A stretch of DNA of 64,000 nt from Pelagibius sp. Alg239-R121 (GTDB taxonomy: Bacteria > Pseudomonadota > Alphaproteobacteria > Kiloniellales > Kiloniellaceae): assembly GCF_947331435.1 (NCBI RefSeq), contig NZ_CAMZOF010000003.1, positions 310,001 through 374,000 on the forward strand. Reading direction: 5' to 3'. Below, in pieces: positions 11,765-53,628 of this stretch; within the stretch, counting starts at the first letter, position 1; each line of letters begins with the position of its first letter. Made by a program: the position numbers and the translations under genes. The notes beneath the pieces are model-generated. The model worked only from the letters and a program-made list of their open reading frames with translations, was not told the DNA's origin and searched no databases.

Positions 11765-12155
11765 GGCGCTATCAAGCTCCAGAGAAATTTTGGTTTGGGC
11801 GCACAGTCGTCCGTCACGGGAACAATGAGCAGCTGTGTGGTGCGCCCTGAAAGCACGTCGAATGCGGCTGGGCTTGCTGAATCCTGAACGTCAGCATACG
11901 TGGACCGATACGACGTGAGTCTTCTCCCAGTATCCCCGGGGTTTGACCTTTGGGTCAGGATCGCGTTTCGTTAAACCAGGCCAAAGGTCTGTTAACCATA
12001 GCGTTCTATTCTGGCTCCTCTAGAGCACGACTTCAGTGGGTGGCGATTGCAGCACTGCCCCGGGTTCACTATATCTTGCGTCGAGTACTATGTGATGATC
12101 GGTGCCAAGGCTGTTGGCACCTGGGAAACCTCCGTCCCGCGTAAAAGGACCGGCT
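11765..12155. other. Intergenic with a perfect 8-bp stem-loop before the AsmA gene
   Basis: No gene was recognised. At 12101-12121 GGTGCCAA, a five-base loop (GGCTG) and TTGGCACC form a perfect hairpin 35 bp before the chosen AsmA start. No T-run follows, so it is not a classical terminator; it could be a regulator site or a 5'-UTR structure. Confidence 0.5.
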
Positions 12156-33080: not shown

Positions 33081-36000
33081 ATGACCGACGACCTTTCCCA
33101 AGGCTTCGATGAGACCAGCACCGACGTCGATGAGAATTCAGATAGCGATGCTGTCTTTAGCTCGGAGGCCATCGACCTCGTTGGTCAAAGTACGCCTTCA
33201 AGGGGTGCCGGTGTCGTGGTTCAACGGCCTGCGCCCGGATCAACTCAGGAATACAGTAATCTCGCGGGCGAGAACTTCCTCCTGGATTTCGATCCATCGG
33301 CGGCACAGTTCCTGGTCGAAGGCCAAAACGTTGTCTTAGGTTTCGACGACGATGGCGATAACGTCATCGACAGTCGCGTCGTGTTCTTGAATATGGTCGA
33401 TGCCGCCAGTGGCGAAAACGCGCCGGCATTTCAGATCGGCGAAGCGGAAATTCCAGTGGCACAGCTCCTGTCTCAGGCTGAGCAACTGTCAGGTGATGGT
33501 ACTCCGCTCGAAACCGCTGCGGGCGCAGAAGCTGTCAGCGGGGGTGGTTCGACCTATGGCGACAACCTTGGTGACCTGCTGAACCTATTGCTGGCGCAGG
33601 GAGTAATTGATGGGACTGCCCTCGCGTTTGGCGTTCCAAATCCTGATATAGCATTGGATCCGATCGATTTTGTCGAGGGGACGATCTCGATCGACTTTGT
33701 CACTATCACAACCGAAGTGTCCGAAGGCGATGTCACCGGCGCCTTCGATGGTGGTTTCGAAGATTGGCAGGCGAACCAGCATCAGGGCGATGCAACGCAA
33801 AGCCCCATGCGTATGAACGTCACCTTTAATCAGCCAGAGGGTGACGACGAAGTCCTCAATTTCATTACTATTTCCGAGATTCCAGAGGGTGTGACCATCT
33901 TCGTTGGTGATCCGACCAATCCGGCGAACGCCCAGAGCGGACCGGTCGTTCAGGTTGCTGCCGACGATATTGACGAAATCTACATTCTGCCGCCGGAACA
34001 CAGCGACGCCGATATTCCTCTGACAGTGACGGCTAACATCACCGATCCCACCGACGGCATCACCGCAACCACGACCCCCTTGACGGTGGTCGGCATCGTT
34101 GATGCGGCAGCCGACAAACCGATCCTCTCCGTTCGTACGTCGTCGCCGGAAAGCATGGAACGCGACAGCAGCTTTGTCGAGCTGCGGGGTGTTCGCCAGT
34201 ATGATGGCGAGGGTGGCGATTACGAAAATGAAAACGATGATAATCCGAAGGAAGAGAATTGCAGTCCGGAGGAAGCTCTGGTCAGCCTTTCGGTTGCTGC
34301 GACCTTCCCGGATTTTGAAGACGGCTCGGAAAGCCATAGCATTGTCGTTCGTGGCGTTCCCTCCGATTGGACCTTGATCGGCAACGAAGCTTTTCCCGAA
34401 GGCTCGGTCACGCATATCGTCGGCGAAGACGGTTTGGATACCTACATCTTCGCGGTAACAGACGGTTCTTTCGTCGAGACCGTGGTGTTCGATCCCCATG
34501 ACTGGTCGTCAGAACGCTTGAGTGATGGTTCGGCCAACACACTTGGCGATGCGGGTATCACGGTTGAAGCCATTGCAGAGGAAGTCGATTTCTCGGGCGG
34601 TGAACTGACTGAGTTGAATGATGTCGCGATAACCCGCGCGGACATTCATGTCTGCATCGAAGAGGACGTGCCTGAAGCTCAAAATGCGGCAGTAGCTTAC
34701 GATGAAACGCCGGGTGTGGACGACGACGCCAACGATGTCGCCGAGCTCGACGAAGACGTCGCTGACGGTCTTTCCGCTGCCTTTGGCGAGAGCTATGACG
34801 GCGACCTGCCCAAGGTCTGCGGCCAGGCACAGACGACGGTCAATTGGGAAATCTTCACGGATGGCACGGTTGATGCCGAGACTGCCGAACCATCGCAGTA
34901 TGCCGTCTCGTTCAGCTACGACGGCGAAACCTCCGGTCTTTTTACCGGTGGCAGCGAGAACCCGGAAGAGGTCTTCCTCTTCAGCGACCCCAACGATCCG
35001 ACCATTGTCTGGGGGATGACTGAGGCGGGAGAACTGGTTTTTGCCGGCCACCTGGATCCGAATCTTGCCGGTGAAAGTGCCGACTTCACCTTTGTCCAGT
35101 TCCAGCAGGTCAATCATCCCGAGGCTGGCGTGGCCGAAGACGGTGATCACGACGAGAATGCGGTTCCGAACCTTTCTCTGACTTACACCGTGACGGATGA
35201 CGAGGGCGATCAGGACTCCGCCGAGATCACGGTGAGCATTCAGGATGATGGTCCCAGCGCCGAAGCTTCTTCTGCAAGTCTCGATGAGTCTGATGGCTTC
35301 GAGGGCGAGATTCCTTTCGAGCTGCCGAAAGACGCACCGGATCCTTGTGGCCTTGCCAAGGGTGCTGTTTCCTTCACTGTTGGAAAGGATATCGTGGGTT
35401 CGGGTATCGAACTGGCTGAAGCCATGTCGGCGTCCTACATCAATCCGGAAACCGAGCAACTTGAATCCTTTGCAGTGACCTCCGCCGGTGACACTGTGAT
35501 TGCGTCTCTCAGCGAAGACGGCTCGGAAATCCGGGGCGAAACCGCAGACGGAGATCTGGTCTATCTGCTACGCCTCGATCAGGAAACCGGGGACTACAGC
35601 TTTATCCAGTTCCGTCAGATCGACCATCCGGTTGACGGCGACAGCGAGGCGGCGCAGGACGACACTCTGAACCTTCGCTTCAGCTACAAGGTCACTGATG
35701 GAGATGGTGACTTTGTCGTCAATGAAATTACGGTCTCCCTGGATGACGATGGACCCTCGGCCGAGACGGCCGCGATCGACTACGACGAAACAATGGGCCT
35801 GGGCATCGTGGACGGTGACCCGCAGGGTACGGATGAAACCGCTGCTGATCTGCCGGACGACCTGGAATTGCCGGAAGGAGCCGAGATTTGTGGTGTGGCA
35901 CAGACCACGCTCAGCTTCGATTTCGGTAAGGACGAGCTGGGTGGCCTGGTGCAGCTCACCGATGGTGAGGGGGAACTGCACGACGGTACAGATAGCGGGC

Positions 36001-39000
36001 TCGCTGCGACCGATGGCAGTGAGAGTATTTACCTCTACGGTGACGGCACGACGGTTGAGGGCCGCATAGGCGGTGAGGACGGTGAGGTCGCCTTTACCAT
36101 CCACCTGGACGGAGAAACCCTGTGGTTTGTCCAGCACAGTGCAATCGAGCACCCGGACGGCGAGTCCTTCGACGAGTCTGTATTCCTTCAGAATCTTGCC
36201 TACACCGTCACGGATGGCGATGGCGACAGCGTCACCAAATCCATCACCATCGAGATCCAGGACGACGGCCCCACAGCGACCGACACGGTCGAGGACACGA
36301 CCCTACGCGAGCAGAGGCTGACGGACAGTAACCCCTTTAACGACTCTGCCAGCGGCACGCTCAACTTCGACGGCGGCAAGGACGGCGCGAGTGTCACGGA
36401 CATCAGTTTCGATCATGCCAGCGACCCGGGCTCGGATTCCGATTTCGACGGCGGCCTGACATCCGGCGGTGCGCCGGTCGTGTTCGCTGCGGCGGTCGAT
36501 ACCGGGACTCACCTCTATCTGACGGGTTCGGCCGGCGGCAATGACGTCATCGAGATCCGCGTTGAGAAGGCCACGGGCAATTACGTAACCACCCTTATGG
36601 GTCCGATCGATCATCCGGATATCGACGAAACCGGTTCACTGGATAACCTCGATCTTTCGTTCAACTACACTGTCACGGACGGAGATGGTGATTCCGACTC
36701 TGCGCTGCTGACGGTTCGAGTCAGTGACGATGGTCCAAACGCGCGCTGGAGCCTGGCCCGCAGCCTCTCGGAGTCCGATCTCGACAACAATGGCCAGGAA
36801 TCCGTCAGCGGTAACCTCCGCTTCGACTTCGGCGCCGATGGTGCGGGCGGCGTTATGGTCACCGACCTTGCCTGGTCTCATGACGTCGGGCGGGACGGCG
36901 ATTTCGACAGGATACTGCGTGCCGGCGGTGAAGAGGTCGTCTTCGGTGCTGCGGTCGAGGACGGTTTGGGCAACATCGTTCTAACCGGCACGGCACCGAT
37001 CGGCGAGAGCGGTGCCTCCGTCGACGTCATCTCGGTGACGGTCAACCAGACAACCGGCGCCTACAGAATCGATTTGGACCACGCTCTGGATCACCCTGAT
37101 GCCGGCCAGACCGGCTTCCTGGACCAGTTGCTTCTGGCATTTAACTACACCGTCACCGATGCGGATGGCGACAGCGACTCCAATCTGCTCAAGGTGTTTG
37201 TGCGGGACGATGGACCGGATGCGCGCTGGACGGCCGCTGAGGAACCGCTCAAGGAACGCGATCTGGATGACAACGGCACCGAAAAACTTGAAGGTCAGCT
37301 CAACATCGACTTTGGTGCCGACGGACCTGGATCGGTTTCCGTCGACGATCTGCGCTTTGTTGCCGACCGTGAAGGAGGTTTCCGCTTCCTGTCCCTGACC
37401 TCCGGCGGTGAGGAAGTCATCTTTGGGGATGCGGTTGACGACGGCGAGGGTAACCTTGTTTTGACCGGTTCGGCGCCGATCGGTGAGGGCGGCGCGGTGC
37501 TCTCGGTGATATCCATCACCGTCGATAAGACAACCGGTGCCTACGTCGTCGAACTGGAGCAGCCGGTCGATCATCCCGACGTCAACCAGACGGGCGGGCA
37601 GGACCCGATCCGCCTGTGGTTCGAATACAGTGTCAGCGACTCCGATGGAGACAGCGATTCCAGCTGGCTGCAGATCGATATCTGGGATGACGGCCCCCGC
37701 GCCGGAAGCACCATCGCCGATGCGCCGCTCAGCGAAGCAGATTTCCACGACGATGGCAGCGAGTCGGTTCACGGCGATCTGGACTTTGACTTCGGTGCCG
37801 ACGGCCCCGGTAGCATCTCGAATGTGAGCTTCGCCGGTGCCGAGGATTCTGAGACTGGGACTGACGCCGCCCTTACGTCCGGAGGCGCTCCCGTGGCTTT
37901 CGGGGCGGCAGCCATCGTCGACGGCATGCTGATTCTGACGGGCGCGGCTGACGGCGAGGACGTTATCGAAATCAAGGTCGATCAGCAGACCGGTGAATAC
38001 TGGGTAACACTGCTTGGCCCTGTAGATCATCCGGATGTCGGTGAAAGCGGTGCTGCAGATCCCCTGGAGCTGACCTTCGACTTTATCGTCCAGGACAGCG
38101 ACAGCCCGGATTCTGCGAAAGGCAGCCTGACGGTCACTATCGAAGACGATGCTCCTGTGCTGGTCGATCCCTGTATCCACGGCAATCTCATCGTCAACGG
38201 CAGTTTTGAAGAGGGCCACGGCTTAGGCAGCCGCAATTGGAACACCTATGGCGAAGGCCGTATTCCTGGATGGAACCCGGATCTCGAGGCCTCCAATGCG
38301 CCGATCGAAATTCAGAACGGTCGACTCGGTGGCATCCGGGCACAGCACGGTACAGCCAAGCTGGAACTGGATTCCCACGCGCGCGGTCCCTTCTCTGAAT
38401 CCAACGCCCATATCTATCAGGACGTGGATACCAATCCGGGTGAGACTTACGAGCTGACCTTTCATTATGCGCCGCGTCCACGTGATGGCGGCAGCGGCAG
38501 CAGCGACGCCGAAGTCTGGTGGAACGGCGAAAAGGTCGCGACCCTGACCGATGACACACGCGGCTGGCAGGAAATCAACCTGAACGTCAAGGGTGGCGAC
38601 GGTGATACCTCCCGTCTTGAATTCCGTGCGGTCGGCAAGGAAAACACGCTGGGTGGTTACATCGACAACATCTCGCTTTGCCCTTGCGCCGCTGTGGACG
38701 AAGACGACCTGCCGAAGGGTACCGACGGTTCCGATTCTGTTTCGATCACAGCGGTTCTTGGTGTCGACTTCGGCGCCGACGGAGCAGGGTCGGTCATCGC
38801 AGCGGACGGCCCGGCAGGCCTCACCTCGAACGGCGAGGTCGTCACCTACAGCTATGATCCCGAAACCCAGACCCTGACGGCAACGGCCGACGGCGTTGTG
38901 GTCTTCACAGTGGTCTTTGATGCTGCTGGTGGCGAGTTCGGCGAGTTTACTTTCACCCTGGAAGGTCAGCTCGACCATCCCATCAGTGGAGAAGACATCC

Positions 39001-42000
39001 TCGATCTGGGACTTTCTTTCACTGCGACCGACGGCGACGGTGATTTCGTAGAAGGCACTGCCAACGTCAAGGTCGTCGACGATGTCCCGATCGCGGAAGA
39101 CAATGTCGACGAGGTCGAAGAGAACGGCGTTGCGACCGGCAATCTTATATCCGATGCCGGCCCTGACGGTGTCGATCAGGTCGGCGCCGACCAGAGCGGT
39201 GTGATCAGCAAGATCGTCCACAACGGTGTGACTTACGAATTGAATGCCGACGGAACGGCCTTAAGCGTTTCTGGCGGCGATCCTGCACCGGTCGAAAATG
39301 TCGACTACAGCTTCGACGGCACAACCCTGATCATTGAGGGTACCGAGCTTGGCGGCACCCTCTCGGTCGTGCTGACCGGTGCCGATGCCGGCGACTACAG
39401 CTATCGGTCCGTCGATGCCGGCCATGAATCCACGACCGCTACGGCCGGTTTCGATCTGGGAGACAGCTTGGGCAAATCGCCCGCTGAATGGGTAGCCTCG
39501 TTCGAAGATCAGGGCTTCACCCTGACGGCTTCGCGTTGGAATCCGGACACGGATAGCTACGACAGCGGCGTGCCGTTGAACAGCAAAGATGTTCGCATCG
39601 AGGGCAGCAATCTTTATGGCGGCGTCGGCACTGCAGGTGACGGCAATAATGGGGACTTTGCCGAAACCTCTTATCGTGACGTAGCCGGCCTGCCGGATGA
39701 TGCCCCATACGAATACATCGACATCGGCCTGCCGGGAGAAACCGATTCCGCCAGCTTGACGGTCGGCGCGCTCTTCAACGGTATCCTCTACGATCATGGG
39801 AACGTCGAGCAGCTCACCGTCGAAGTTTCCAATGACGGCGAGACCTGGGTTACGGCGACGGTCGACCCGGTACGCGGCGATTATGACGGCGTAATCACGA
39901 TCCACGTGAGTGGCGATGAGCCCTTTAGTCAGATTCGGGTCACACCGGTTCAGAGCGACAGCGGTTCGGGTCACAGCAACAGCGACTTCCTGATCCTGGG
40001 CGTGACAGCGCATGACTGTGCAGCGGCGGTCGAGGAAAGCTTCGATTACACCCTGCGGGATAGTGACGGCGATACCTCCAGCGCGACGCTGACCATCGGG
40101 GTCGAGCCGGGCGTTGCCGAACCTACGGTCGAGATTCAGGTGGACGCCGAGAGCGGCGCGATCTGCATCAAGGAAGACACCACCGGTACGGTCAACTTCA
40201 CGGCCAGCGCCGAAGGCGACGACGTAATCACTGAAATCGAGATTACCGGTCTAGACCCGAGCGCGACCTACGACTTCAGCCAGATTGAGCTGGATAATCC
40301 GGGTGCATCGGTTGTGATCTCGGAAGACGGTACCTCCGCGAAAGTGACCGGTCTGAACACGGCATCGGTGACCACCAGCTTTGAAGTGACGGCTCCGGCG
40401 GACAGCGATGTCGATCTGGGTACCCTGACCGTGACGGCGACGGCCCGTGACGAAGGTTACTGCCATACAGGCATTACCGCCACCGCGAGCGATTCGGCGG
40501 ATGTTGTGGTCGATGCGGTGGCCGATGCGATCACCATCACCAGTTTTAGTGTGAGCGATGCCAGCGGCGATGATGACATGACCTTCGGGGCTGGTGAGTT
40601 GGGCAGCCTGAATATTGCTGCGACCTGGGGTGACGGTGCTGATGGCTCTGAAGAACACAGTGTCACCATTGAGCTGCCGACCGGTTTCGTCTTCACTGAG
40701 TTCGCTGAAGGTGAATCGACTTTGACGCTGGATGACGTTTCTCTGCCGTTCGATATGAATATCGGTATCCAGGCCAGTGAAGATATCACCGATGGCGAAA
40801 ATCTTGCCTTTACGGTTACGGTCGACGGTGTGGAATTGGCGACCTTGGACGGTGACAACGGCGCCAGCGGTGTGGAAAAAGATCTCTCCGACAACACTGA
40901 GAGTGCCGAAGCCACAACTTACGCTTCGGTGCAGGTTGCCGTACCCGATCCCGATCTGGTGGTCGGCAGTAACGATAACGACGAGCCAGAGAACGCGACA
41001 CCACACTACGTCCCCGCGGACACGCCGCCGGCCGAAGGCGGCATCTTCGGCGGTGACGGCGACGACATTCTAATCGGCGATGTCGGTGGAACCGGTTCAG
41101 TGGAAGCGGCCGTGAATGTTTCCTATGTCATCGATGTGTCAGACTCCATGAGTTTCGTTCGGGTGAGTCTTCCCGATTACCAGACTTCCGGTCCGGATGC
41201 CGACGCTTATCGTCTTGAAGGCCTGCCACCGGGTGCCCGGGTTCAGTATGGCGACAGCTATAGCGAATCCGTCTATTTCAACAGCTCGGGAACTGCGACA
41301 CTGAGTGACGATCAGATGGGGGACCTGATCATCCGACTACCCGACGGCTCATTGGATCTCAACGAACCGGGTTTCAACATCACGGTTCAGCCATTGCAGT
41401 ACAGTGGAGGCGGCACGCATGCTGTCGGCACTCAACAGTCCAAGCCTGTCGATCCGTCAGAGGCAGGCCTGGTTGAGGCAAAAGAAGCTTTCACGGCGTT
41501 GCACGATTCCCTGCGCAATCAGCTCGCCAACAACAATTTGACCACCTTCCAGCTGGTCGCCTTCAACAGCGGGGTCGCGGTGAATCAGGTCTTCACTTAC
41601 GACCCGGTCGACGATCGCTTCGAGAATGACTCCGGTCAGGCTCTGGAAGCTGTAATAGCCAATCTGGGTGCCTCGGGTGGTACGCAATTCGAGGGGCCGA
41701 TCCAAGCCGTCGAAGACTTTCTGAATGACGGCAATCGACACGACGGCGCGGTTAACAAGGTCTATTTCCTCAGCGATGGTGAGGACAACGACGGATACGA
41801 CGCTTCGATCGACTTCGAAGGGATCGATGTTGGGGTCCATGTCTTCGGGATCGGGACGGAGATCGTGCCTGAGCAGCTTGCCCAGGTGGCCGGTGAAGGC
41901 AATACCGACTCCTCCGTTGTCATTGTCGAGGACACAGGTGATCTCTCGACGTTGCTGGGCGATCAGACCCTGACAATCCTGACCGACGTTGGCGAGGATG

Positions 42001-42635
42001 AAATAACCGGCGGCGAAGGCAACGACCTGATCTTCGGTGACGTCATCAATACCGACTGGATGCTCGATCCGGTCGAGGAGGGCGGACTCGGTGCGATCGG
42101 TGAAGCTGGTGGCGGTTACAATACTCTCGTTGATCATCTGACCGCGACCTTGGGGCAGGCACCGACCAAGCTCGAGGTCATGACCTTCATTCAGGACAAC
42201 CAGGACCGCTTTATCGAAGAGGCTGCTCACGATACCCGCGGTGAAGCCGATCTCATCAACGGTGGGGACGGTGACGATATACTGCTGGGCCAGGGTGGCG
42301 CTGATATCCTGATTGCCGGTGAAGGGGATGATGCCCTCTATGGCGGCGCGGACGGAGATACCTTTGTCTTTAATCTCACTGCTGACGAAGGCAATAACAC
42401 CATCTTCGACTTCTCAGCAGGCAGTGGCGACCGGCTGTCCTTCGAGGATGTCACCGACGGTGGTGACAGTGGCGAGGACATCAGCATTGAAGATGCGGTC
42501 GCATCCTTCTCCAAGACCGATAATGTGGTGACGCTGGAACTGCAGAGCGGAACCACGATCGTGTTCCAGGATCTCGACAACGCGATCAACGACTTGACTG
42601 ATCTCGACACCAATGCGCTGATCAACGGGACATGA
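33081..42635 (+). CDS. Giant RTX-type repeat adhesin, type I secretion substrate (LapA/Bap-like)
   Basis: 3184 residues, very acidic. N-terminal region (about 1-140) could be a retention module and is followed by TAAG at residues 145-148, the LapG-type cleavage motif. Repeats of about 155-170 residues end in YTVTDxDGDxD...DDGP; their DDGP/DDAP ends lie near 35244, 35745, 36261, 36726, 37206, 37686 and 38146. Around residues 1694-1873 is a jelly-roll-like domain (GNLIVNGSFEEGHG ... YIDNISLCPC). A von Willebrand A domain (about 2680-2970) has the metal site DVSDSMS (D2685). RTX nonapeptides (GGDGDDILIGD, GGEGNDLIFGD, GGDGDDILLGQGGADIL) flank it and lead to a C-terminal secretion signal. No Sec signal. 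GAGGAG lies 9 nt before ATG. Odd for a type I substrate: at least ten cysteines, often as VCGxA/ICGVA. Likely exported by the ABC/HlyD/TolC set nearby. Confidence 0.92.
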   Translation: MTDDLSQGFDETSTDVDENSDSDAVFSSEAIDLVGQSTPSRGAGVVVQRPAPGSTQEYSNLAGENFLLDFDPSAAQFLVEGQNVVLGFDDDGDNVIDSRVVFLNMVDAASGENAPAFQIGEAEIPVAQLLSQAEQLSGDGTPLETAAGAEAVSGGGSTYGDNLGDLLNLLLAQGVIDGTALAFGVPNPDIALDPIDFVEGTISIDFVTITTEVSEGDVTGAFDGGFEDWQANQHQGDATQSPMRMNVTFNQPEGDDEVLNFITISEIPEGVTIFVGDPTNPANAQSGPVVQVAADDIDEIYILPPEHSDADIPLTVTANITDPTDGITATTTPLTVVGIVDAAADKPILSVRTSSPESMERDSSFVELRGVRQYDGEGGDYENENDDNPKEENCSPEEALVSLSVAATFPDFEDGSESHSIVVRGVPSDWTLIGNEAFPEGSVTHIVGEDGLDTYIFAVTDGSFVETVVFDPHDWSSERLSDGSANTLGDAGITVEAIAEEVDFSGGELTELNDVAITRADIHVCIEEDVPEAQNAAVAYDETPGVDDDANDVAELDEDVADGLSAAFGESYDGDLPKVCGQAQTTVNWEIFTDGTVDAETAEPSQYAVSFSYDGETSGLFTGGSENPEEVFLFSDPNDPTIVWGMTEAGELVFAGHLDPNLAGESADFTFVQFQQVNHPEAGVAEDGDHDENAVPNLSLTYTVTDDEGDQDSAEITVSIQDDGPSAEASSASLDESDGFEGEIPFELPKDAPDPCGLAKGAVSFTVGKDIVGSGIELAEAMSASYINPETEQLESFAVTSAGDTVIASLSEDGSEIRGETADGDLVYLLRLDQETGDYSFIQFRQIDHPVDGDSEAAQDDTLNLRFSYKVTDGDGDFVVNEITVSLDDDGPSAETAAIDYDETMGLGIVDGDPQGTDETAADLPDDLELPEGAEICGVAQTTLSFDFGKDELGGLVQLTDGEGELHDGTDSGLAATDGSESIYLYGDGTTVEGRIGGEDGEVAFTIHLDGETLWFVQHSAIEHPDGESFDESVFLQNLAYTVTDGDGDSVTKSITIEIQDDGPTATDTVEDTTLREQRLTDSNPFNDSASGTLNFDGGKDGASVTDISFDHASDPGSDSDFDGGLTSGGAPVVFAAAVDTGTHLYLTGSAGGNDVIEIRVEKATGNYVTTLMGPIDHPDIDETGSLDNLDLSFNYTVTDGDGDSDSALLTVRVSDDGPNARWSLARSLSESDLDNNGQESVSGNLRFDFGADGAGGVMVTDLAWSHDVGRDGDFDRILRAGGEEVVFGAAVEDGLGNIVLTGTAPIGESGASVDVISVTVNQTTGAYRIDLDHALDHPDAGQTGFLDQLLLAFNYTVTDADGDSDSNLLKVFVRDDGPDARWTAAEEPLKERDLDDNGTEKLEGQLNIDFGADGPGSVSVDDLRFVADREGGFRFLSLTSGGEEVIFGDAVDDGEGNLVLTGSAPIGEGGAVLSVISITVDKTTGAYVVELEQPVDHPDVNQTGGQDPIRLWFEYSVSDSDGDSDSSWLQIDIWDDGPRAGSTIADAPLSEADFHDDGSESVHGDLDFDFGADGPGSISNVSFAGAEDSETGTDAALTSGGAPVAFGAAAIVDGMLILTGAADGEDVIEIKVDQQTGEYWVTLLGPVDHPDVGESGAADPLELTFDFIVQDSDSPDSAKGSLTVTIEDDAPVLVDPCIHGNLIVNGSFEEGHGLGSRNWNTYGEGRIPGWNPDLEASNAPIEIQNGRLGGIRAQHGTAKLELDSHARGPFSESNAHIYQDVDTNPGETYELTFHYAPRPRDGGSGSSDAEVWWNGEKVATLTDDTRGWQEINLNVKGGDGDTSRLEFRAVGKENTLGGYIDNISLCPCAAVDEDDLPKGTDGSDSVSITAVLGVDFGADGAGSVIAADGPAGLTSNGEVVTYSYDPETQTLTATADGVVVFTVVFDAAGGEFGEFTFTLEGQLDHPISGEDILDLGLSFTATDGDGDFVEGTANVKVVDDVPIAEDNVDEVEENGVATGNLISDAGPDGVDQVGADQSGVISKIVHNGVTYELNADGTALSVSGGDPAPVENVDYSFDGTTLIIEGTELGGTLSVVLTGADAGDYSYRSVDAGHESTTATAGFDLGDSLGKSPAEWVASFEDQGFTLTASRWNPDTDSYDSGVPLNSKDVRIEGSNLYGGVGTAGDGNNGDFAETSYRDVAGLPDDAPYEYIDIGLPGETDSASLTVGALFNGILYDHGNVEQLTVEVSNDGETWVTATVDPVRGDYDGVITIHVSGDEPFSQIRVTPVQSDSGSGHSNSDFLILGVTAHDCAAAVEESFDYTLRDSDGDTSSATLTIGVEPGVAEPTVEIQVDAESGAICIKEDTTGTVNFTASAEGDDVITEIEITGLDPSATYDFSQIELDNPGASVVISEDGTSAKVTGLNTASVTTSFEVTAPADSDVDLGTLTVTATARDEGYCHTGITATASDSADVVVDAVADAITITSFSVSDASGDDDMTFGAGELGSLNIAATWGDGADGSEEHSVTIELPTGFVFTEFAEGESTLTLDDVSLPFDMNIGIQASEDITDGENLAFTVTVDGVELATLDGDNGASGVEKDLSDNTESAEATTYASVQVAVPDPDLVVGSNDNDEPENATPHYVPADTPPAEGGIFGGDGDDILIGDVGGTGSVEAAVNVSYVIDVSDSMSFVRVSLPDYQTSGPDADAYRLEGLPPGARVQYGDSYSESVYFNSSGTATLSDDQMGDLIIRLPDGSLDLNEPGFNITVQPLQYSGGGTHAVGTQQSKPVDPSEAGLVEAKEAFTALHDSLRNQLANNNLTTFQLVAFNSGVAVNQVFTYDPVDDRFENDSGQALEAVIANLGASGGTQFEGPIQAVEDFLNDGNRHDGAVNKVYFLSDGEDNDGYDASIDFEGIDVGVHVFGIGTEIVPEQLAQVAGEGNTDSSVVIVEDTGDLSTLLGDQTLTILTDVGEDEITGGEGNDLIFGDVINTDWMLDPVEEGGLGAIGEAGGGYNTLVDHLTATLGQAPTKLEVMTFIQDNQDRFIEEAAHDTRGEADLINGGDGDDILLGQGGADILIAGEGDDALYGGADGDTFVFNLTADEGNNTIFDFSAGSGDRLSFEDVTDGGDSGEDISIEDAVASFSKTDNVVTLELQSGTTIVFQDLDNAINDLTDLDTNALINGT

Positions 42636-42877: not shown

Positions 42878-43936
42878 CTATTCGTCGAGCTGACGGGCCA
42901 ATTCGCCGAGCAGCGAGACGCTTGGCTTTGCGGGCCCGGTCAGATGGGCATCATTCAGAAACGCCTGAATAGCAATACGCCGGCTGGAACGCGACGGGCG
43001 CTTACCTCTTCCACGCAGATACCCCAATTCCGACAACAGAAGGTCAATTGTCTGGATTGGAGTGTCTTCCGCCTTGCGATTGACGCGTGGTGGCTTGCCT
43101 TCCCGCCAGATGTTCCCGGCTGGCCGGAGAATGCGTGCAGCGCGGGCCGAACCGACATCGGGATGGAACACCGATACTGAAAGAGCGCCGGCGATATCCT
43201 GTTTCCCGTCAGAAGCACCGATGACATGGACGCCCGTGGCGTAGATTCCGCCATCTGTAAAAACCAGCAACGGCGAACCGGAGTCACCCTGCATGATGCT
43301 GCAACGGTGGGCGATACCAACGCCGTTTTTAAAATAACCGGCGATTTCGCATCCGAAGCCGGCTTTCAGACGGTGCGGTGCATCGCCGCGATAGCCGGCA
43401 TGGAGCAGGGTTGCACTGCCTTCAGACAGGTCCCTGAGTAATTCGTTGTCCAGGCGGCGCAAAGCCAGCCATCCGGCATCTTTTCCCAGCGGACGTGCCA
43501 GCTCCAGAAGCGCCCAATCGGTGACAGTATTTTTGACCGAAGCGTCCGAAGTTTTTTTGTATTTCTTGGATTGTTTGTACTTTTTGACTGACGAGGTGAT
43601 TTTGTGCTGACGGTTCTGATATCCCGCAGTGAAGCGGATTTCCGACGATTTGATCCAGCGGTTGCTCGCGCGGTCATAGAGGCAATGCGCGGCGGTCAAA
43701 ACATGCTTTTGGCTAATCAGGAAACCGGAACAATGCCCGATCGAGGTTTCGATTTTGCCGATGGCGCTCCAGGGGTACTCCATGGCATTGACGGTCACGC
43801 GTTCCGGGATTGCCCAGGCGGCGTTGACGCCAAGCCCGAGCGTGCTTGAGCCGAGGAGGGTCGCGACCAGCAGAGGCTTCAGTCTTTTCGGACTGCGGGC
43901 CGCTGCGAGAAACCGATGATGAGGCCATTTTGTCAT
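42878..43936 (-). CDS. Exported trypsin-like (S1) serine protease with C-terminal peptidoglycan-binding-like domain
   Basis: 352 residues. A signal peptide follows an extended basic N-terminus (KPLLVATLLGSSTLGLGVNAAWA, cleavage near residue 42). The S1 triad is complete: H84 in LTAAHCLYD, D140 in VTDWALLELA and S219 in QGDSGSPLL; cysteine pairs (C69/C85, C196/C212) suggest disulfides and a periplasmic or extracellular place. Residues about 285-350 resemble PG_binding_1 (IQTIDLLLSELGYLRGRGK ... RIAIQAFLNDAHL). It is the last gene of the minus-strand set that faces the adhesin, 76 bp after its paralogue. A role in adhesin processing is inferred only from position. Confidence 0.87.
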   Translation of the reverse strand: MTKWPHHRFLAAARSPKRLKPLLVATLLGSSTLGLGVNAAWAIPERVTVNAMEYPWSAIGKIETSIGHCSGFLISQKHVLTAAHCLYDRASNRWIKSSEIRFTAGYQNRQHKITSSVKKYKQSKKYKKTSDASVKNTVTDWALLELARPLGKDAGWLALRRLDNELLRDLSEGSATLLHAGYRGDAPHRLKAGFGCEIAGYFKNGVGIAHRCSIMQGDSGSPLLVFTDGGIYATGVHVIGASDGKQDIAGALSVSVFHPDVGSARAARILRPAGNIWREGKPPRVNRKAEDTPIQTIDLLLSELGYLRGRGKRPSRSSRRIAIQAFLNDAHLTGPAKPSVSLLGELARQLDE

Positions 43937-44012: not shown

Positions 44013-45038
44013 TTAACGTACCTTCTCTTCGCTCAGTAGGAGCTGCTCAAGCAACTGAATGGAGGCTTGGCCGTCACGGGTAAGCTTTTGCTCCAATTGA
44101 AATTTTTTAATTGCTTCGGCGCGTTCTTTTGCGGTTCCTGCAGTGTCGGTTGATAGAAAACCCGATCTGTACAGCAGCGCATCAATGGCCTTGAGCGGCA
44201 GCCGATTAATCTTATCGTTCTCCTGGGGCTGCTGGCCTGGTCCCCAATAAGCTTTCAGTGCTGTCGAGAACTCCAGTGTCGCTGGACCCGTTGCTTCGGG
44301 ATGGAACGCCACCAGCGAGAGCGTGCCGGAGACAGGCCGGCCGTCCCATCGAACTTGAAGGACGTGGATGCCGATTACGGAAATCCGGCCGCGATCAAGG
44401 ACCAGCAACGGAGATCCTGAATCGCCTTTGGCAATCGGGCAGTCGTGCACCAAGCCGGAATTCTTAGAGAAATTGCCAACAAATGTGCAGCCAAATGTTG
44501 CGGTGATGACATGAGCGCGCTGCCTTTGATAGCCCGCTTGGAGCAGTATGGCTTTCTTTTGGTCGATCCGACTGCGCAGTCCCTCGTCAAGGCCACGCAC
44601 ACCAAACCACCCGGTCTGTCGTCCTATCCCTTTCTTCAGTCGGACGACAGCCCAGTCGGCGACCGCGTTCTCAGCAGATACCGACTGTGCGGGCTTGAAC
44701 GCCTTCGACACTTGGTAGCTTTCGACCGGCGAATGCAGACTGTAGTCTTCGCGTTGATAAGCAGCGACAAAATGAAGTTCGCTTGCGCCGCGCCATCGTC
44801 CGCTGATGTTGTCATATAGGCAGTGCGCTGCTGTAAGCAGCGTCTGCTCGCCGATCATAAAGCCGGTGCAATGTCCGCGCCCGCCCGCGTTGAGGCGCCC
44901 GATCGGGCTCCAGGGATAGGAATGCGCGTTCACTTCAATCCGGGATGCGTTGCCGTCATTCTTTGCAAGTGCCTGCCCGCTGCCCGATCCAAGCAAGCAT
45001 GCGGCTATCATCCAGGCTGTCGTTTTGCGTGCAAACAC
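44013..45038 (-). CDS. Exported trypsin-like (S1) serine protease, paralogue of the next gene
   Basis: 341 residues, GTG start. Signal peptide MFARKTTAWMIAACLLGSGS (GTG read as Met) with likely cleavage after QALA. Same layout as the neighbour: PWSPIG region, H72 in LTAAHCLYD, D128 in VADWAVVRL, S207 in KGDSGSPLLVL, and a C-terminal helical PG_binding-like part (KAIDALLYRSGFLSTDT ... AIKKFQLEQKL). The two proteases share about the same motifs but differ widely elsewhere, an old tandem duplication. Starts 5 bp after the HD-GYP stop, so it is translationally linked to the signalling gene upstream. Confidence 0.87.
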   Translation of the reverse strand: MFARKTTAWMIAACLLGSGSGQALAKNDGNASRIEVNAHSYPWSPIGRLNAGGRGHCTGFMIGEQTLLTAAHCLYDNISGRWRGASELHFVAAYQREDYSLHSPVESYQVSKAFKPAQSVSAENAVADWAVVRLKKGIGRQTGWFGVRGLDEGLRSRIDQKKAILLQAGYQRQRAHVITATFGCTFVGNFSKNSGLVHDCPIAKGDSGSPLLVLDRGRISVIGIHVLQVRWDGRPVSGTLSLVAFHPEATGPATLEFSTALKAYWGPGQQPQENDKINRLPLKAIDALLYRSGFLSTDTAGTAKERAEAIKKFQLEQKLTRDGQASIQLLEQLLLSEEKVR

Positions 45039-45043: not shown

Positions 45044-47188
45044 TTAGGTTTCGTTCGCCGGTAAGCCAGCCAACAGTTTCTCGCCTGCCACGCTGCCGAC
45101 GACATCCCGCAGGGCCTCAACGATGCGTGTCGCATAGCGATCCTTGTTCTCGTTGAGGATCTTCAGGGTTTCTTCGTTGGAAAGACCTGCACGGTATGAC
45201 CGCGGCTCAACGCGGGCGGAGAAGACATCGCACACTCCGAGGATCTGCGCCGTAACCAGGATCGCTTCTGCTTTCAACCCAACCGGATAGCCGCCGCCAT
45301 CCAGCCGTTCGTGCATCTGATAGATCGTCGGCAGGACTGGTAACTCGAAGTCGATATCCCGTAGCATCGACGCGGCGTGATCCAAGTGTTTTCTGATTTC
45401 GGCGATTTCCGAATCATCAAGCCGGTCGGGTTTATTCAGGAGCTTACGGGAGATTGCCAGCTTACCGAGCTGAGATAGATTCGCCGCAATCTCCAAGGTC
45501 GAGACCTCTTCGCTGGAGAGCTGCAAGCGCTTGGCGACTGCAACCGCAAGGCTGGCGACGCGACGCGAATGGCCGGCCAGATAGGGATCTCGCAGTTCGA
45601 TGGCACGCACAAGTGCGGTTACCATTTGCCGGACGGCCCGGTCGCGTTTCTGCTGCTCTTCTACCAACTCGGTGACGTCACGCACTACAGAAACGACGCC
45701 GTTGGGCTGATCCTGTTCGTCGAGGAACGGCAGCTTGGAGAACTGCAGATGCCGCCGCTTGCCGTCTAAATAGACTTCTTCGTTAAAGGTCGTAACGGCC
45801 GCGCGCTCAAGAGCTTTTTTGTCGGACAGCGCGAGACGATCGGCTGTTCCCTGACCGAAGAGCGCAACATCATCCAGGCCGACAATATCCTCTGAATCCC
45901 GGCCCACGGCTTTGGCGAATGCGCTATTGGCGTAACGGTAGTTGCCATCGGGCGCTTTCAATCCGATGTAGTCTGCGATGCTGCCGTTGATGCTGTCTAA
46001 AAAACGTTTTTGGGTTTGGATTTGTGCCGCGAGGTGTCGGAACTGGTCTGCCATCATTCGATTGTGGCTGCTGCGCAGCTGCGCCCAGACCGCTCCAAAG
46101 ACGGCAACGATTGCAAAGACGATAAGAGCCATAGCGACGATGACAACCGTTGTATAGGTGTTAAGCTCAGCGTGGGCCGCACCCCGGTCCATTTCGAGAA
46201 CAGCCCAGAAGTCATCACCTGAAATTGGTGCGGCGCGGGCGTAGGCGACTTTCGTGCCATCGAGCGAAGATCCCGCTGTAAAAGGCAGGCTTTTGTGTCC
46301 GGGGATAAAGTCGCTGCCGGCAAGCGATTGTAATTCGGGTGTCCTGGTGGGAAGCAGTTCAATAAGACCGTTGTCGGGCGTCATATGAACTAGATGCAGC
46401 TGTTCGCCTTTGGGAGCGAGTGGACGCGGTGCCAGGCTCTCAGCCAACTTTACGGCCACCGGCGCCGTTACGATCAGCACACCGACAGGCGCGGCTTGAT
46501 CGGTCTGGGACGCGGCGGGCAGGATTGGAATATAGATATCCATGACCAGGCCTGCCGCCGCGGCACGTGGCGCGCCGAATTGCCTGTCGCCGGCCGCCAG
46601 GACCGAGAGCGCCAACTTGGCCTGCTGTGTTTCCAACGGTGCGGCTCCACCGCTCGTAACGAAAGCAACGCCGGCCTTGCCGACCACGTAGCCCGACACG
46701 AAGTCAGCCGAGATCACAAAATCTGTAAGAACTCTTTCCATGTAGGGGAGTTGTTCAAGCAACGCGATGCCGAGACCCGAGTCAGAATTCTGGTTCTGTT
46801 CGACCTGTGGCGTCGATTCGATCACGCCACCGGCTGCATCGACATCGCTCGCAAACAACCGGAAGAGCTCGCTCTCAACCAGCCGGTCGGCGAGCCGCGC
46901 TGTGCCGTCGAGCCAGGTTGAGATGACCTCTGCGCGTGCTTCTACCGTGATCCGCATCCGCTGCTGCAAGTCGCCAATCACCTGCGCTTTTTTTGATTCG
47001 ATTGTCAGCCAGGGAATGACGACGGCGATGACGACGATAGCGGCAAGGCCGATCAGGGCGGATTTTGGCAAGCCGTCAGGTGCATCGGGTGAGGATGCCG
47101 GCTGTTCCAGATCGATCGTGGCCAAATCAGTCTGGGCCAGATCAATCGATGATCGCTCCAACTCGTTCATTCTGTTGCCTATGGACAT
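45044..47188 (-). CDS. Membrane sensor with dCache-like, PAS and degenerate HD-GYP domains
   Basis: 714 residues. TM1 43-63, a periplasmic region of about 280 residues (dCache-like), TM2 346-368, a PAS domain at about 400-510 (YIGLKAPDGNYRYANSAF ... VVSVVRDVTELV), then an HD-GYP domain at about 525-695 (HSRRVASLAVAVAKRL; NKPDRLDD; GGGYPVGLKAE). HD-GYP enzymes hydrolyse c-di-GMP, but here the HD pair itself is replaced: LSQLGK (S572, Q573) where LHDIGK is expected, and one His of the HHE motif is Met625 (YQMHER). H540, H601, H626, D654 and GYP (633-635) remain. Loss of metal ligands argues for a receptor rather than an enzyme. It follows the LapG gene by 26 bp, where LapD is expected in Lap systems. 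Confidence 0.9.
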   Translation of the reverse strand: MSIGNRMNELERSSIDLAQTDLATIDLEQPASSPDAPDGLPKSALIGLAAIVVIAVVIPWLTIESKKAQVIGDLQQRMRITVEARAEVISTWLDGTARLADRLVESELFRLFASDVDAAGGVIESTPQVEQNQNSDSGLGIALLEQLPYMERVLTDFVISADFVSGYVVGKAGVAFVTSGGAAPLETQQAKLALSVLAAGDRQFGAPRAAAAGLVMDIYIPILPAASQTDQAAPVGVLIVTAPVAVKLAESLAPRPLAPKGEQLHLVHMTPDNGLIELLPTRTPELQSLAGSDFIPGHKSLPFTAGSSLDGTKVAYARAAPISGDDFWAVLEMDRGAAHAELNTYTTVVIVAMALIVFAIVAVFGAVWAQLRSSHNRMMADQFRHLAAQIQTQKRFLDSINGSIADYIGLKAPDGNYRYANSAFAKAVGRDSEDIVGLDDVALFGQGTADRLALSDKKALERAAVTTFNEEVYLDGKRRHLQFSKLPFLDEQDQPNGVVSVVRDVTELVEEQQKRDRAVRQMVTALVRAIELRDPYLAGHSRRVASLAVAVAKRLQLSSEEVSTLEIAANLSQLGKLAISRKLLNKPDRLDDSEIAEIRKHLDHAASMLRDIDFELPVLPTIYQMHERLDGGGYPVGLKAEAILVTAQILGVCDVFSARVEPRSYRAGLSNEETLKILNENKDRYATRIVEALRDVVGSVAGEKLLAGLPANET

Positions 47189-47214: not shown

Positions 47215-47913
47215 TTATTGGCGAACGAAGTGCGCCCAGCGGGTGGTCTCATTCATCGAATACTGCGGCAGGTAGTGCTTATATTTTGAGTGTGACAAAA
47301 TGACGTTCGAAAGGCTATCGAGGACCAGGATGTCGTTTTTTTCGTATATTGCCAGAATGGCATGTCCGATATTGCGAATTCGGTCCATCACGATGACCAC
47401 ACGCATTTCCTGTTCCGAGAAACCCAATTCTTTGAGAGCGAAGTATTTTGCAATCGAAAAGTCCTCGCAATCGCCGGAACGGGTCATGAATTCCACGGGA
47501 CTGGCCCAATATTCATTCACGCCAAAAACTTCTTGGTCGAACTTGTACGGCCAGCGGTTAAAATAGCGGTTGACCGCACGAAGCTTCTCCTGCCGATTAA
47601 GGTTTCGGGCAGAGATGATGATTTCGCGCCAGGATTTTTGCACTTCGCTCGAACAGTTCGCCGCGTTGTTTGTGCAGGACTGAAACGCTTTTTGTTCTTG
47701 CTTGACCTGGTCCAGTACTCTGCGCCATTGAGGCAGGGCCTTGAAGGACTTCGATTTAAATTCGATGGTCCGGAAGATCCCGGGAGAGGCGGTCTGCAGG
47801 GATTTTGTCAGATCACTCAGCGTCGCGGAGCGTACGGGAAACGGCGCGGCTGGCAGCGCGGCAGCAAATGCCGCGATCCCCATGATAAACCGTCGCCGAT
47901 GCACCGTGAGCAA
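47215..47913 (-). CDS. lapG: LapG-type periplasmic transglutaminase-like cysteine protease (BTLCP, DUF920)
   Basis: LapG cuts the N-terminus of LapA-type adhesins and releases them from the surface when c-di-GMP is low. The 232-residue protein has the triad C149 in SGDCEDFSIAKYFAL, H184 in NIGHAILAIY and D199 in VLDSLSNVI; the H-to-D spacing (15) equals that in Pseudomonas LapG, as does the calcium-site DCE around the cysteine. WREIIISARNLNRQEKLRAV and the YFNRWPYKFD motif are also family-typical. The N-terminus HRRRFIMGIAAFAAAL (twin Arg then hydrophobic) looks like a Tat or Sec signal. Start uncertain: TTG 47913 or GTG 47904. Substrate inferred: the giant adhesin 4.6 kb away. Confidence 0.9.
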   Translation of the reverse strand: MLTVHRRRFIMGIAAFAAALPAAPFPVRSATLSDLTKSLQTASPGIFRTIEFKSKSFKALPQWRRVLDQVKQEQKAFQSCTNNAANCSSEVQKSWREIIISARNLNRQEKLRAVNRYFNRWPYKFDQEVFGVNEYWASPVEFMTRSGDCEDFSIAKYFALKELGFSEQEMRVVIVMDRIRNIGHAILAIYEKNDILVLDSLSNVILSHSKYKHYLPQYSMNETTRWAHFVRQ

Positions 47914-49750: not shown

Positions 49751-51082
49751 TCAACGCTCCCGCAAAGCCTGGTCACGTGCCTTTAAGATCGGTTTGAGCA
49801 GATAGTCCAACACGGTCTTCTTGCCGGTCAGAATCTCGACGGTAGAGGTCATGCCCGGGATGATCGGCAGTTCGGCGCCGTTGCGTTGGAGCGTGATATC
49901 ACCGGTCCTGAGATAGACCCGATAGAAACTCTCACCCTGGTCATCCTTGATCGTGCCGGCCGATATGGTCTCAAGCTGCGCGTTGAGGCCGCCGTAAATG
50001 GAAAAATCATAGGCGGTAATCTTGATGGTCGCTTCTTGACCAGGGCGCAGGAACGCGATGTCGGACGGGCGGATCTGCGCTTCGATCAAAAGTGTGTCGT
50101 CCAACGGCACGATTTCGATGATGTCTTCCCCTGGACGAATGACGCCGCCAACTGTGTTGTGTTTGACTTCCTTGATGGTGCCACGCACCGGCGAACGAAC
50201 CTCGGTTCGTGTCACCAGATCTTCGCCGGCGGTCAGGGACTGGCTGATCGACTGTGCTTCCGTCCTGGCCTGGCTGAGTTCTTCGGAGACCTGAGCTTTC
50301 GTTGAAAGGACCAATTCGTCGATACGCTGCTGGGCTTCCAGAACCGCGGTCTGCAGGCGCGGCATGCTAAGGCGAATGGTTTTCAGCTCGCCTTCCAGAT
50401 CCGAGACCTGGCGGTCAATTCGGATAAGATCCAACCGCGGACTGATCCCCTTCTTGACCAGGGGGGCTGTGATTCCGCGTTCTTCCTGTGCCAATTTCAG
50501 GCTTCGGCGGAGCTGTTGGCTGCGGCTCTTGGCCTCGGTTATTTCCTGTTCGCGCTGGGACTTCTGCGCCTGCAAAACAGCGATCTGAGCGGTCAGCTGA
50601 CGTTTCCGGTTGTCAAATTGCAGGCGCTGGGTCGAGACCTCTCGGGCCGCATTTTCGATGACATTCTCGGAGAACTCGATTTCTCTGTCTTCCAGCTCGG
50701 CTTCGAGGCGGGCTGACTTCGCCAGCAGGGCAAAGTACTGGCTGCGCGTGTCCTGGAAAGTTGCCCGCGCCGCCGTGTTGTTGATGCGGACCAGAATATC
50801 GCCGGGTTCAACGATGTCGCCTTCACGCACCATGATCCCTGCGAGGATGCCACCCTCGAGATTCTGAATAATCTGGGTCTTGCTGGAGGGAACCACCGTG
50901 CCTTCGCCGCGTGTTACCTCATCCAGAACCGCATGGTTCGCCCAAATGCCGAACACAAGGAAGAACAGAAACGATGTCAGCGTCAGGATATAGGCAAAAG
51001 CACGACCGCGCCGGCGCGCCGCGGCGTGGACGTCGGGCATGAAGAAAAGGTCTTCATCCTTGTAGGGGTCGGAAGTCGACAT
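49751..51082 (-). CDS. Type I secretion membrane fusion protein, HlyD family (LapC-like)
   Basis: Periplasmic adaptor that links the inner-membrane ABC exporter to TolC. 443 residues: short cytoplasmic N-terminus, one membrane segment (RAFAYILTLTSFLFFLVFGI, about 27-46), a lipoyl-like half-motif (VVPSSKTQIIQNLEGGILAG), long coiled coil (about 120-290) and the second half (VRSPVRGTIKEVKHNTVGGV, about 290-315) leading to a beta-barrel domain (PGMTSTVEILTGKKTVLDYL), the HlyD C-terminal signature. It starts 98 bp after the ABC gene, same strand. Confidence 0.93.
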   Translation of the reverse strand: MSTSDPYKDEDLFFMPDVHAAARRRGRAFAYILTLTSFLFFLVFGIWANHAVLDEVTRGEGTVVPSSKTQIIQNLEGGILAGIMVREGDIVEPGDILVRINNTAARATFQDTRSQYFALLAKSARLEAELEDREIEFSENVIENAAREVSTQRLQFDNRKRQLTAQIAVLQAQKSQREQEITEAKSRSQQLRRSLKLAQEERGITAPLVKKGISPRLDLIRIDRQVSDLEGELKTIRLSMPRLQTAVLEAQQRIDELVLSTKAQVSEELSQARTEAQSISQSLTAGEDLVTRTEVRSPVRGTIKEVKHNTVGGVIRPGEDIIEIVPLDDTLLIEAQIRPSDIAFLRPGQEATIKITAYDFSIYGGLNAQLETISAGTIKDDQGESFYRVYLRTGDITLQRNGAELPIIPGMTSTVEILTGKKTVLDYLLKPILKARDQALRER

Positions 51083-51180: not shown

Positions 51181-53628
51181 TCAATTCGCACCGGCACGAA
51201 TGCGCCCCTGCTTCAAGGCTTCTAGGACTTCTTCCTTTTTGCCGTCAGCGACGATCTTGCCGTTGTCCAGGATGATCAGACGGTCCACGAGGCTGAGCAG
51301 CGAACTGCGGTGGGTTACAAGCAAAAGGGTCTTGCCGACCATCGCTTTGCCCAGGCGGTTTTTGAACATCGCCTCAGTCGAGTTGTCCATACCGCTGGTC
51401 GGCTCATCCATCAAAATGATCGGTGGATCGAGCAATAGAGAGCGCGCGATGACGACCGCCTGCCGCTGTCCGCCCGACAACGCCATGCCGCGCTCGCCCA
51501 CCTGTAGATCAAATCCATGCGGATGAGCTCGAAGAAAGTCGCTGACGCCTGCGACGGCAGCGGCTCGCAGAATGGTCTTGTCGTCGACATGCGGTGCGCC
51601 GAAGGAGATGTTTTCGCGCACCGAACCGAAGAAGAGATAGTTGTCCTGTGAGACATAACCGATATTACGGCGCAAATCCGCTGGATCGATTTGACGCAGA
51701 TCAGTGCCATCCATCAAAACCGAGCCTTCGGTCGGTTCGTAAAGGCCGAGCAAAAGGCGCGCGATGGTGCTCTTGCCTGACCCGATCCGCCCCAAGATGC
51801 CGATTTTCTCACCGGGCTTCACCTTGAAGCTGAGGTTGTCGAGGGCCAGGGGTTCCTGGTTCGGGTAGTTGAAATTGATCTTCTTGAATTCGATCTCACC
51901 GCTCAGGCGCGGCCGATGCAGGAAGGTTTTGTCCTGGTCGCGCTCGACAGGCGATTTCATCAGGGTGTCCAGCGACTTCAATGCGACCCGCGACTGCTGG
52001 AGCCGGGTCAGCATGCCTGCAATGGCGCCGAGCGGAGCCAGCGCACGGCCCGTGAGCATGGTCGAGGCCACCAGGGCGCCCATGGTGATTTCACCTTCGG
52101 AAATAAGATGAACGCCGTAGATCACGACGATAACCGTCACCAGTTGGATTGTGACCTGGGCGAAGGTCGTTGCGATGCCCGAGAGGAACCTTGCTTTGCC
52201 CGATGACTCCGCAGTCAGGCCGACAAAGCGTTCCCAGGAACGCTGCACCCGGCCCTCGGCGGCGGTTGCCTTGATGGTCTCCAGACCATCGATGGTCTCA
52301 ACGAGCAAAGCGTGCTTCTGGCTCGACTCCCGATGCGTCTTTTCTATGACTTTCCGCAAAGGTATCTGCAGACAGACACCCACAAAAATCACGATCGGTA
52401 CGGCAATCAGAGGGATCAGGGCAATCGGACCCGACACCAGGAAAATGACACCGAGGAACAGAAAGATGAAAGGCAGGTCGACAAAGGCGACCAGTGTTCC
52501 TGAGGTGAAAAACTCTCGCAGGCTCTCGAATTCGCGAAGATTGTTTGCCATTGCGCCGGTCGAGGGCGGTTTACTGGAGAGCTTCATGGACATCAGCTGC
52601 TCAAGCAACCTGCTGGCGATAATGACGTCTGCATTTTTGCCGGCAATATCGACGAAGTAAGTGCGCATGTTGCGCATAACGAACTCGAACAGGAACACCG
52701 TGCAAACGCCGAGGGCCAGAACCCAAAGCGTCTCAATAGCGTTGTTCGGTACGACGCGGTCGTAGACGTTCATGATGAACAGTGGGCTCGCGATCGCGAA
52801 GCAGTTGATCATGATCGAGGCCAGCGCCACGTGACTGTAGATCGGCCAGAACTTTGCCAGCGTGCCCCAGAACCAGGCTGTCGGCTGCTTGAGTCGGATG
52901 TCCAAGGCGCGATCGTCGAACTTGAACTCGGGCCGTGCAAAGATCGCGTAGCCGAGGTACTGCTCCTCCAGTTCCTCGATGTCGATGGTCTTGGTGCCGC
53001 CACCGCCCTCGGGCACCATAATTTCAGCAGACTGCTTGCCCTTGATCTGGGTGAGAACACAAGCCCCACTGCCTTTCAGCAGCAGAATACAGGGCAGGGT
53101 CACCTGCTGTATGGATTTTAGTTTGGGCCGGCGGACGACGCGCGCCGTAAGCCCGGCGCGTTCGGCGGCCCGGACTGCCAGCTCAGGAGTGAATCGCTGT
53201 TCGGCGTGCGGGAGTCCGGCCTTAAGAGCTTCCGCCGAAATCGGGCGCTGCAGCAGGGTGGCGAGGAAAGTGACGCATTGTACGAGCGGGTCTTCGAAGT
53301 CGACCATCGAGGGGGCAACATGCCACTCGGACTTAGCCGCTTCCAAGAGGTCCTCCGGTTGCAGCGGGCTTGTTGCTTTCTCGGCTTCCGGCTGCTGCGC
53401 GCTCCCCGATTCAGTGTTCAGCGGAGTCCCTGTCGATGCAGGCGCTGAATCCGTTGCGGATTGCGGTGCAGTGCCGGATCCAGGCTGGGGTGTCGACTCA
53501 GGTGCTGGCTCGGTCGTCGCGGCTTGTGGAGACTGACTTGCTTGCTGTTGCGGGGATGCGGAAGCTGTCCTCGCCCCGACGCTGTAATCGCGAGGTGCCA
53601 TCGTGCTCTTGTGGTCTCCTGCAGTCAT
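51181..53628 (-). CDS. Type I secretion ABC transporter (LapB/HlyB-like) with C39-like domain
   Basis: Inner-membrane exporter ATPase, 815 residues. A long Gln/Ser/Pro/Ala-rich N-terminus (about 1-95) precedes a C39-like domain (about 105-235, DPLVQCVTFLATLLQRPIS); the catalytic layout of true C39 peptidases is not obvious, so it is likely a substrate-docking domain as in HlyB. A six-helix membrane part (about 270-570) includes FIMNVYDRVVPNNAIETLWV. The ATPase has Walker A GRIGSGKSTIARLLLG, signature LSGGQRQAVVIAR and Walker B PPIILMDEPTSGMD. The Gln-rich N-tail is unusual. It heads the minus-strand cluster; expected substrate is the giant RTX adhesin. Confidence 0.93.
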   Translation of the reverse strand: MTAGDHKSTMAPRDYSVGARTASASPQQQASQSPQAATTEPAPESTPQPGSGTAPQSATDSAPASTGTPLNTESGSAQQPEAEKATSPLQPEDLLEAAKSEWHVAPSMVDFEDPLVQCVTFLATLLQRPISAEALKAGLPHAEQRFTPELAVRAAERAGLTARVVRRPKLKSIQQVTLPCILLLKGSGACVLTQIKGKQSAEIMVPEGGGGTKTIDIEELEEQYLGYAIFARPEFKFDDRALDIRLKQPTAWFWGTLAKFWPIYSHVALASIMINCFAIASPLFIMNVYDRVVPNNAIETLWVLALGVCTVFLFEFVMRNMRTYFVDIAGKNADVIIASRLLEQLMSMKLSSKPPSTGAMANNLREFESLREFFTSGTLVAFVDLPFIFLFLGVIFLVSGPIALIPLIAVPIVIFVGVCLQIPLRKVIEKTHRESSQKHALLVETIDGLETIKATAAEGRVQRSWERFVGLTAESSGKARFLSGIATTFAQVTIQLVTVIVVIYGVHLISEGEITMGALVASTMLTGRALAPLGAIAGMLTRLQQSRVALKSLDTLMKSPVERDQDKTFLHRPRLSGEIEFKKINFNYPNQEPLALDNLSFKVKPGEKIGILGRIGSGKSTIARLLLGLYEPTEGSVLMDGTDLRQIDPADLRRNIGYVSQDNYLFFGSVRENISFGAPHVDDKTILRAAAVAGVSDFLRAHPHGFDLQVGERGMALSGGQRQAVVIARSLLLDPPIILMDEPTSGMDNSTEAMFKNRLGKAMVGKTLLLVTHRSSLLSLVDRLIILDNGKIVADGKKEEVLEALKQGRIRAGAN

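Follow-up and report, generated by a model that had tools for sequence, protein, structure and literature searches.

Here, we present an analysis of a degenerate HD-GYP protein encoded in a stretch of alphaproteobacterial DNA of 64,000 nucleotides (the window). Because matches to the DvhD structures span every one of its domains, we are confident, on the basis of homology and gene context, that this protein is the alphaproteobacterial counterpart of DvhD, i.e., an inner-membrane c-di-GMP receptor that derives from a dead HD-GYP phosphodiesterase and would restrain a LapG-type protease. The idea of an inactive HD-GYP domain as a c-di-GMP receptor has already been demonstrated for DvhD, and the published class-level distribution of DvhD may already cover Alphaproteobacteria (PMC13090378). 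What is new here is that the pair of a DvhD-type receptor and a LapG-type protease is widespread in Alphaproteobacteria. Replacement of LapD by a dead HD-GYP protein is apparently a common alphaproteobacterial way of controlling adhesin release, also beyond the sulfate reducers. The interest lies in this breadth, in the link between a LapG neighbor and a broken metal site, in an apparently uncharacterized branch of MN-type receptors, and in a trypsin-like companion protease.

The receptor gene and the parts of its product discussed below are as follows:
45044..47188, minus strand: DvhD-like receptor, 714 aa (phmmer matches to the DvhD structures 9rc0, 9rbz and 9rc2)
46187..46972, minus strand: periplasmic dCache domain, residues 73-334 (9rc2, the DvhD dCache domain, E 7.6e-28)
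45662..45982, minus strand: PAS domain, residues 403-509 (PAS_4, E 4.1e-18)
45134..45613, minus strand: degenerate HD-GYP domain, residues 526-685 (Pfam HD_5, E 1.6e-34)
45470..45475, minus strand: S572-Q573, replacing the HD metal pair (motif search and alignment)
45314..45316, minus strand: M625, replacing the first His of HH (motif search and alignment)

From the N to the C terminus, the protein consists of a transmembrane segment, a periplasmic dCache domain, a second transmembrane segment, a PAS domain and the degenerate HD-GYP domain, with the transmembrane segments, as read off the sequence, at about residues 43-62 and 346-370. In phmmer searches, residues 390-710 matched the PAS/HD-GYP structure 9rc0 of DvhD (E 3.5e-74), residues 504-710 matched 9rbz, and residues 73-334 matched 9rc2, this last sequence match being the basis of the dCache assignment. 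In the 8.0-Mb window genome, the receptor is the sole HD-GYP protein matching the HD_5 family.

The first-pass annotation had described an HD-GYP domain in which the canonical LHDIGK reads LSQLGK and the HH of the third motif reads MH, while H540, H601, D654 and the GYP tripeptide remain. A motif search returned identical positions, with LSQLGK at 571-576, QMHE at 624-627 (M625 and H626), H540 in AGH, GYP at 633-635, and YR at 665-666. An alignment with PmGH agreed, in that the iron ligands E185, H189, H221, D222, H250, H276, H277 and D305 of PmGH correspond to Y536, H540, S572, Q573, H601, M625, H626 and D654 of the receptor. Three of the seven ligands common to typical HD-GYP domains (H221, D222 and H276 in PmGH) are therefore gone; the E185 position, a Tyr in the receptor, is also a Tyr in many intact HD-GYP domains. 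The pattern SQ..H..M(H/Y)..D is kept in relatives with 45-75% identity to the receptor, arguing that the substitutions are neither a sequencing error nor due to chance.

DvhD (DVU1020/BfsD; PDB 9rc0, 9rbz and 9rc2) of Desulfovibrio (Nitratidesulfovibrio) vulgaris Hildenborough has SQ at HD, MN at HH and a metal-free site, and did not hydrolyze c-di-GMP with any ion tried; it has two c-di-GMP sites, one canonical and one bridging, binds this nucleotide with a Kd of 99 nM and 3'3'-cGAMP with a Kd of about 0.5 uM, changes conformation upon binding of c-di-GMP and, in cells, governs DvhG, a protease of the LapG type (PMC13090378). The window receptor shares with DvhD the order of domains, the SQ at HD, the M at the first His of HH, and the LapG-type protease, type I secretion system and giant adhesin encoded alongside. 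It differs in having H626 and D654 where DvhD has N and N, in the ligand contacts K582I, M646R, E668N and P567S (DvhD numbering), and in belonging to an alphaproteobacterium in which trypsin-like proteases are co-encoded and the adhesin gene is convergent to the operon. The behavior predicted in the first-pass annotation, i.e., loss of hydrolysis with retained ligand binding, in parallel to degenerate EAL domains that became receptors, is thus the published behavior of the closest solved homolog, which comes from another class. For the window protein itself, homology to DvhD, with the same SQ, together with genome context supports the predicted loss of hydrolysis, the predicted binding and the LapD-like function reported for DvhD (PMC13090378).

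To compare the ligand pockets, the DvhD residue numbering was checked letter by letter against the structure chain. At the canonical site, Y523, L577, Y621, R650, Y652 and R653 of DvhD are kept (Y536, L590, Y634, R663, Y665 and R666 in the receptor), whereas K582, M646 and E668 are changed to I595, R659 and N681. At the bridging site, K520, P567 and R569 correspond to R533, S580 and K582. Among 38 SQ-type relatives, R659 is kept in 36, N681 in 33 and I595 in 24; the bridging Pro is kept in 29, and S580 is found mainly in the window genus. In DvhD, the P567T substitution weakened the effect of c-di-GMP, while M646A had a small effect (PMC13090378). c-di-GMP binding by the window receptor is likely from these comparisons; because some of the DvhD contacts are changed, its affinity and specificity are not predictable from the sequence.

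The genes around the receptor gene, a decisive context that had been absent from the first-pass annotation, are the following:
47215..47913, minus strand: periplasmic cysteine protease of the LapG/DvhG type (BTLCP; 232 aa), with a signal peptide (Peptidase_C93, E 6.5e-20)
49751..51082, minus strand: type I secretion membrane fusion protein of the HlyD/LapC type (TIGR01843, above cut-off)
51181..53628, minus strand: type I secretion ABC transporter of the LssB/LapB type (TIGR03375, above cut-off)
33081..42635, plus strand: giant RTX adhesin, 3184 aa, probable substrate (DUF5801, E 1.9e-66)
33513..33524, plus strand: TAAG at residues 145-148, the predicted site of LapG cleavage, single copy in the adhesin
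44013..45038, minus strand: trypsin-like serine protease with a signal peptide and a C-terminal peptidoglycan-binding-like region
42878..43936, minus strand: second trypsin-like serine protease, in tandem

The LapG-type gene is located 26 bp upstream of the receptor gene. Like LapG and DvhG, its product has a Cys-His-Asp triad (the Cys in GDCED, His184 and the Asp in LDSLSN) and the calcium-binding DCE motif; unlike them, it scores below the NCBI equivalog cut-off of the CystProtLapG model (E 3.7e-30). The adhesin gene converges on the receptor operon from the other side and encodes DUF5801 repeats together with vWA-like and RTX-like stretches, for which VWA and RTX score just under their cut-offs. 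A probable amphipathic helix, read from the sequence, precedes the TAAG motif, which is of the kind cleaved by LapG and DvhG (PMC13090378). Adhesins encoded by relatives have LETAAG at about residues 137-145, or, in two cases, L(E/V)VAAG at 171-184; a 'DP' turn motif as in LapA was not seen in the adhesin at 33081-42635, while the [T/A/P]AAG site is present and conserved. The gene order ABC-HlyD-LapG-receptor is likewise conserved across relatives. Between the HlyD and LapG genes of the window lies an asparagine-synthase-like gene (48125-49594, minus strand). Of the genus's three other genomes, L002 and L003 have this gene in the same position; L004 and other genera do not have it there.

We infer both c-di-GMP binding by the window receptor and the direction of LapG control, and propose the following model. 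At a high level of c-di-GMP, the cytoplasmic HD-GYP dimer would bind the nucleotide without hydrolyzing it, the stalk and PAS domain would rearrange, and the signal would cross the membrane. On the periplasmic side, the dCache domain would then keep the neighboring LapG-type protease inactive, so that the adhesin exported by the adjacent type I system would stay anchored via a putative N-terminal retention domain. Upon a drop in c-di-GMP, LapG would be freed, and its cleavage of the adhesin at TAAG (residue 145) would let the cell detach. The model does not account for the two trypsin-like genes.

Three other readings of the receptor have to be weighed. That the receptor scheme holds for a different ligand, e.g., 3'3'-cGAMP or pGpG, or with a low affinity for c-di-GMP, comes to mind because residues contacting the base and the phosphate are changed. 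These changes (M646R, E668N and K582I) are not random, given how often R659, N681 and I595 recur among the SQ-type relatives, and DvhD does bind 3'3'-cGAMP (PMC13090378). Nevertheless, Y536, L590, Y634, R663, Y665 and R666 are retained, M646A has little effect in DvhD, and the genome encodes ordinary GGDEF and EAL proteins; altogether, we regard this reading as unlikely. Rather less probable still is that no nucleotide is bound and that the dCache sensor controls LapG from the periplasm with the cytoplasmic part as a dimer scaffold. The loss of three metal ligands, the change of the bridging-site Pro to Ser in the window genus, and the additional loss of the GYP tyrosine in most MN-type relatives would fit a scaffold; however, SQ-type relatives show strong conservation of the GYP and of the RSYR contact motif, which is unexpected for a bare scaffold, and DvhD binds tightly with even fewer remaining metal ligands.

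We consider it highly improbable that the receptor is still an active phosphodiesterase that uses other ligands or metals, even though H540, H601, H626 and D654 remain together with the catalytic pair D534/K576. In PmGH, Ala at any one of H221, D222 and H276 essentially abolishes activity (PMC4159591), DvhD with the same SQ is inactive with every ion tried (PMC13090378), and an intact site was found in none of the LapG-linked relatives; based on the loss of metal ligands, this reading was rejected.

Using a threshold of E 1e-20, receptor relatives, some of which are other HD-GYP proteins, were found in 41 of the 61 genomes searched in the order and in 82 of 385 in the class. Among 398 genomes of the phylum searched at E 1e-55, only the window genome and one genome of the same class matched, and a search of a plasmid collection returned no full-length relative of the receptor.

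For a comparison of metal sites, we used 126 non-identical HD segments and counted LapG as a neighbor when encoded within 600 bp. In none of the 85 relatives with an adjacent LapG is the metal site intact, and all 10 relatives with an intact site lack a LapG neighbor, with a few of the 126 scoring as lost solely or partly from alignment gaps (e.g., L115, L152, L047 and L052). For the remaining 31 non-intact relatives, the stretch examined contained no LapG gene, partly due to contig ends. The link between LapG and loss of the metal site is significant in Fisher's test (p 6e-6) when kinship among the sequences is ignored, in a sample that was selected for resemblance to the window protein and in which intact enzymes are therefore under-sampled. 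A metal site that is always broken beside LapG and intact in unlinked proteins provides a simple criterion by which receptors can be distinguished from phosphodiesterases in genomes, and the relatives supply many natural variants for mapping the HD-GYP residues needed to bind versus to cut c-di-GMP.

The receptors fall into two main groups. Those with SQ, AQ or SG at HD are encoded in an operon on the same strand as LapG and keep the GYP in nearly all cases, whereas those with MN are mostly encoded head-to-head with LapG and have usually lost the GYP tyrosine; R650 and R653 (DvhD numbering) are retained in 63 of the 64 MN sequences. MN-type receptors (L039-L042, L104-L148, L175, L179, L181 and others) occur in many alphaproteobacterial families. 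No mention of the MN group was found in the literature searched, and this branch is apparently uncharacterized. In a tree of 115 HD domains, which was a quick search, contains 12 intact sequences and is not safely rootable, a branch with a support of 99 separates the intact enzymes from nearly all LapG-type receptors, the exception (L161_1049) not being LapG-linked. This separation would fit a metal site that was lost just once. The MN group and two stragglers form one starred branch of this quick tree. DvhD of D. vulgaris branches basally in the SQ group, and the tree therefore favors neither direction for any transfer. Four loci (L126, L136, L137 and L158) encode shorter receptors (513-579 aa) with SG, AG or AA at HD beside LapG and HlyD, and a scan of the L126 protein gave no recognized PAS domain. 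In L069, the full gene is followed, after about 1.1 kb, by a second, truncated copy of the receptor HD-GYP domain (12076-12639).

The trypsin-like gene at 44013..45038 begins 5 bp past the receptor gene, and its product has an apparent signal peptide and intact His, Asp and Ser residues. In most loci of the window lineage, the receptor gene is followed, often with an overlap, by a trypsin-like gene, usually a single one as against the tandem pair of the window. Four genomes of another family carry a trypsin-like gene in the opposite orientation, no more than 630 bp away. The peptidoglycan-binding-like C-terminal region scores above the cut-off in one relative and below it in the window copy. 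The published description of the Dvh operon includes no trypsin-like protease (PMC13090378). Our guess is that the companion functions in adhesin release or maturation. It is a tentative and rather doubtful idea that a trypsin-like protease and LapG act under one receptor in a two-protease release or maturation new to Lap/Dvh systems, with the MN branch following a second, differing ligand logic.

Among other known systems, the active HD-GYP proteins PmGH (4mcw/4mdz) and V-cGAP3 (5z7c) share the fold, the GYP and the RxY(R/K) motif with the window receptor but keep HD and HH and are not LapG-linked membrane receptors. Bd1817 of Bdellovibrio is also an HD-GYP protein without phosphodiesterase activity; however, it retains a di-iron centre and has no GYP tyrosine, the reverse of the window receptor (PMC4159591).

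Among named records, those nearest to the window are Kiloniellaceae and Denitrobaculum, which places it in Alphaproteobacteria. Its genome encodes a turnover of c-di-GMP, with ten GGDEF matches and ten EAL matches; of the EAL matches, one is below the cut-off and two are short contig fragments. LapD consists of LapD_MoxY_N, HAMP, GGDEF and EAL domains. The LapD of Pseudomonas fluorescens is a c-di-GMP enzyme that has degenerated into a receptor of the inner membrane and holds LapG in check; in this logic it resembles the window receptor, but its domains differ from dCache-PAS-HD-GYP. A search for a LapD-type receptor elsewhere in the window genome with the LapD_MoxY domain (PF16448), which matched in one other genome of the order and in none of 14 control genomes, did not find a canonical LapD domain. 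The genome encodes two BTLCP proteases. The second LapG-type protease (contig C5; L050, 8975-9661) has no receptor beside it; an ORF for a TpsB-like protein of two-partner secretion (TPS) lies at a distance of about 4.5 kb, an arrangement that brings to mind the control of the TPS adhesin CdrA by LapG.
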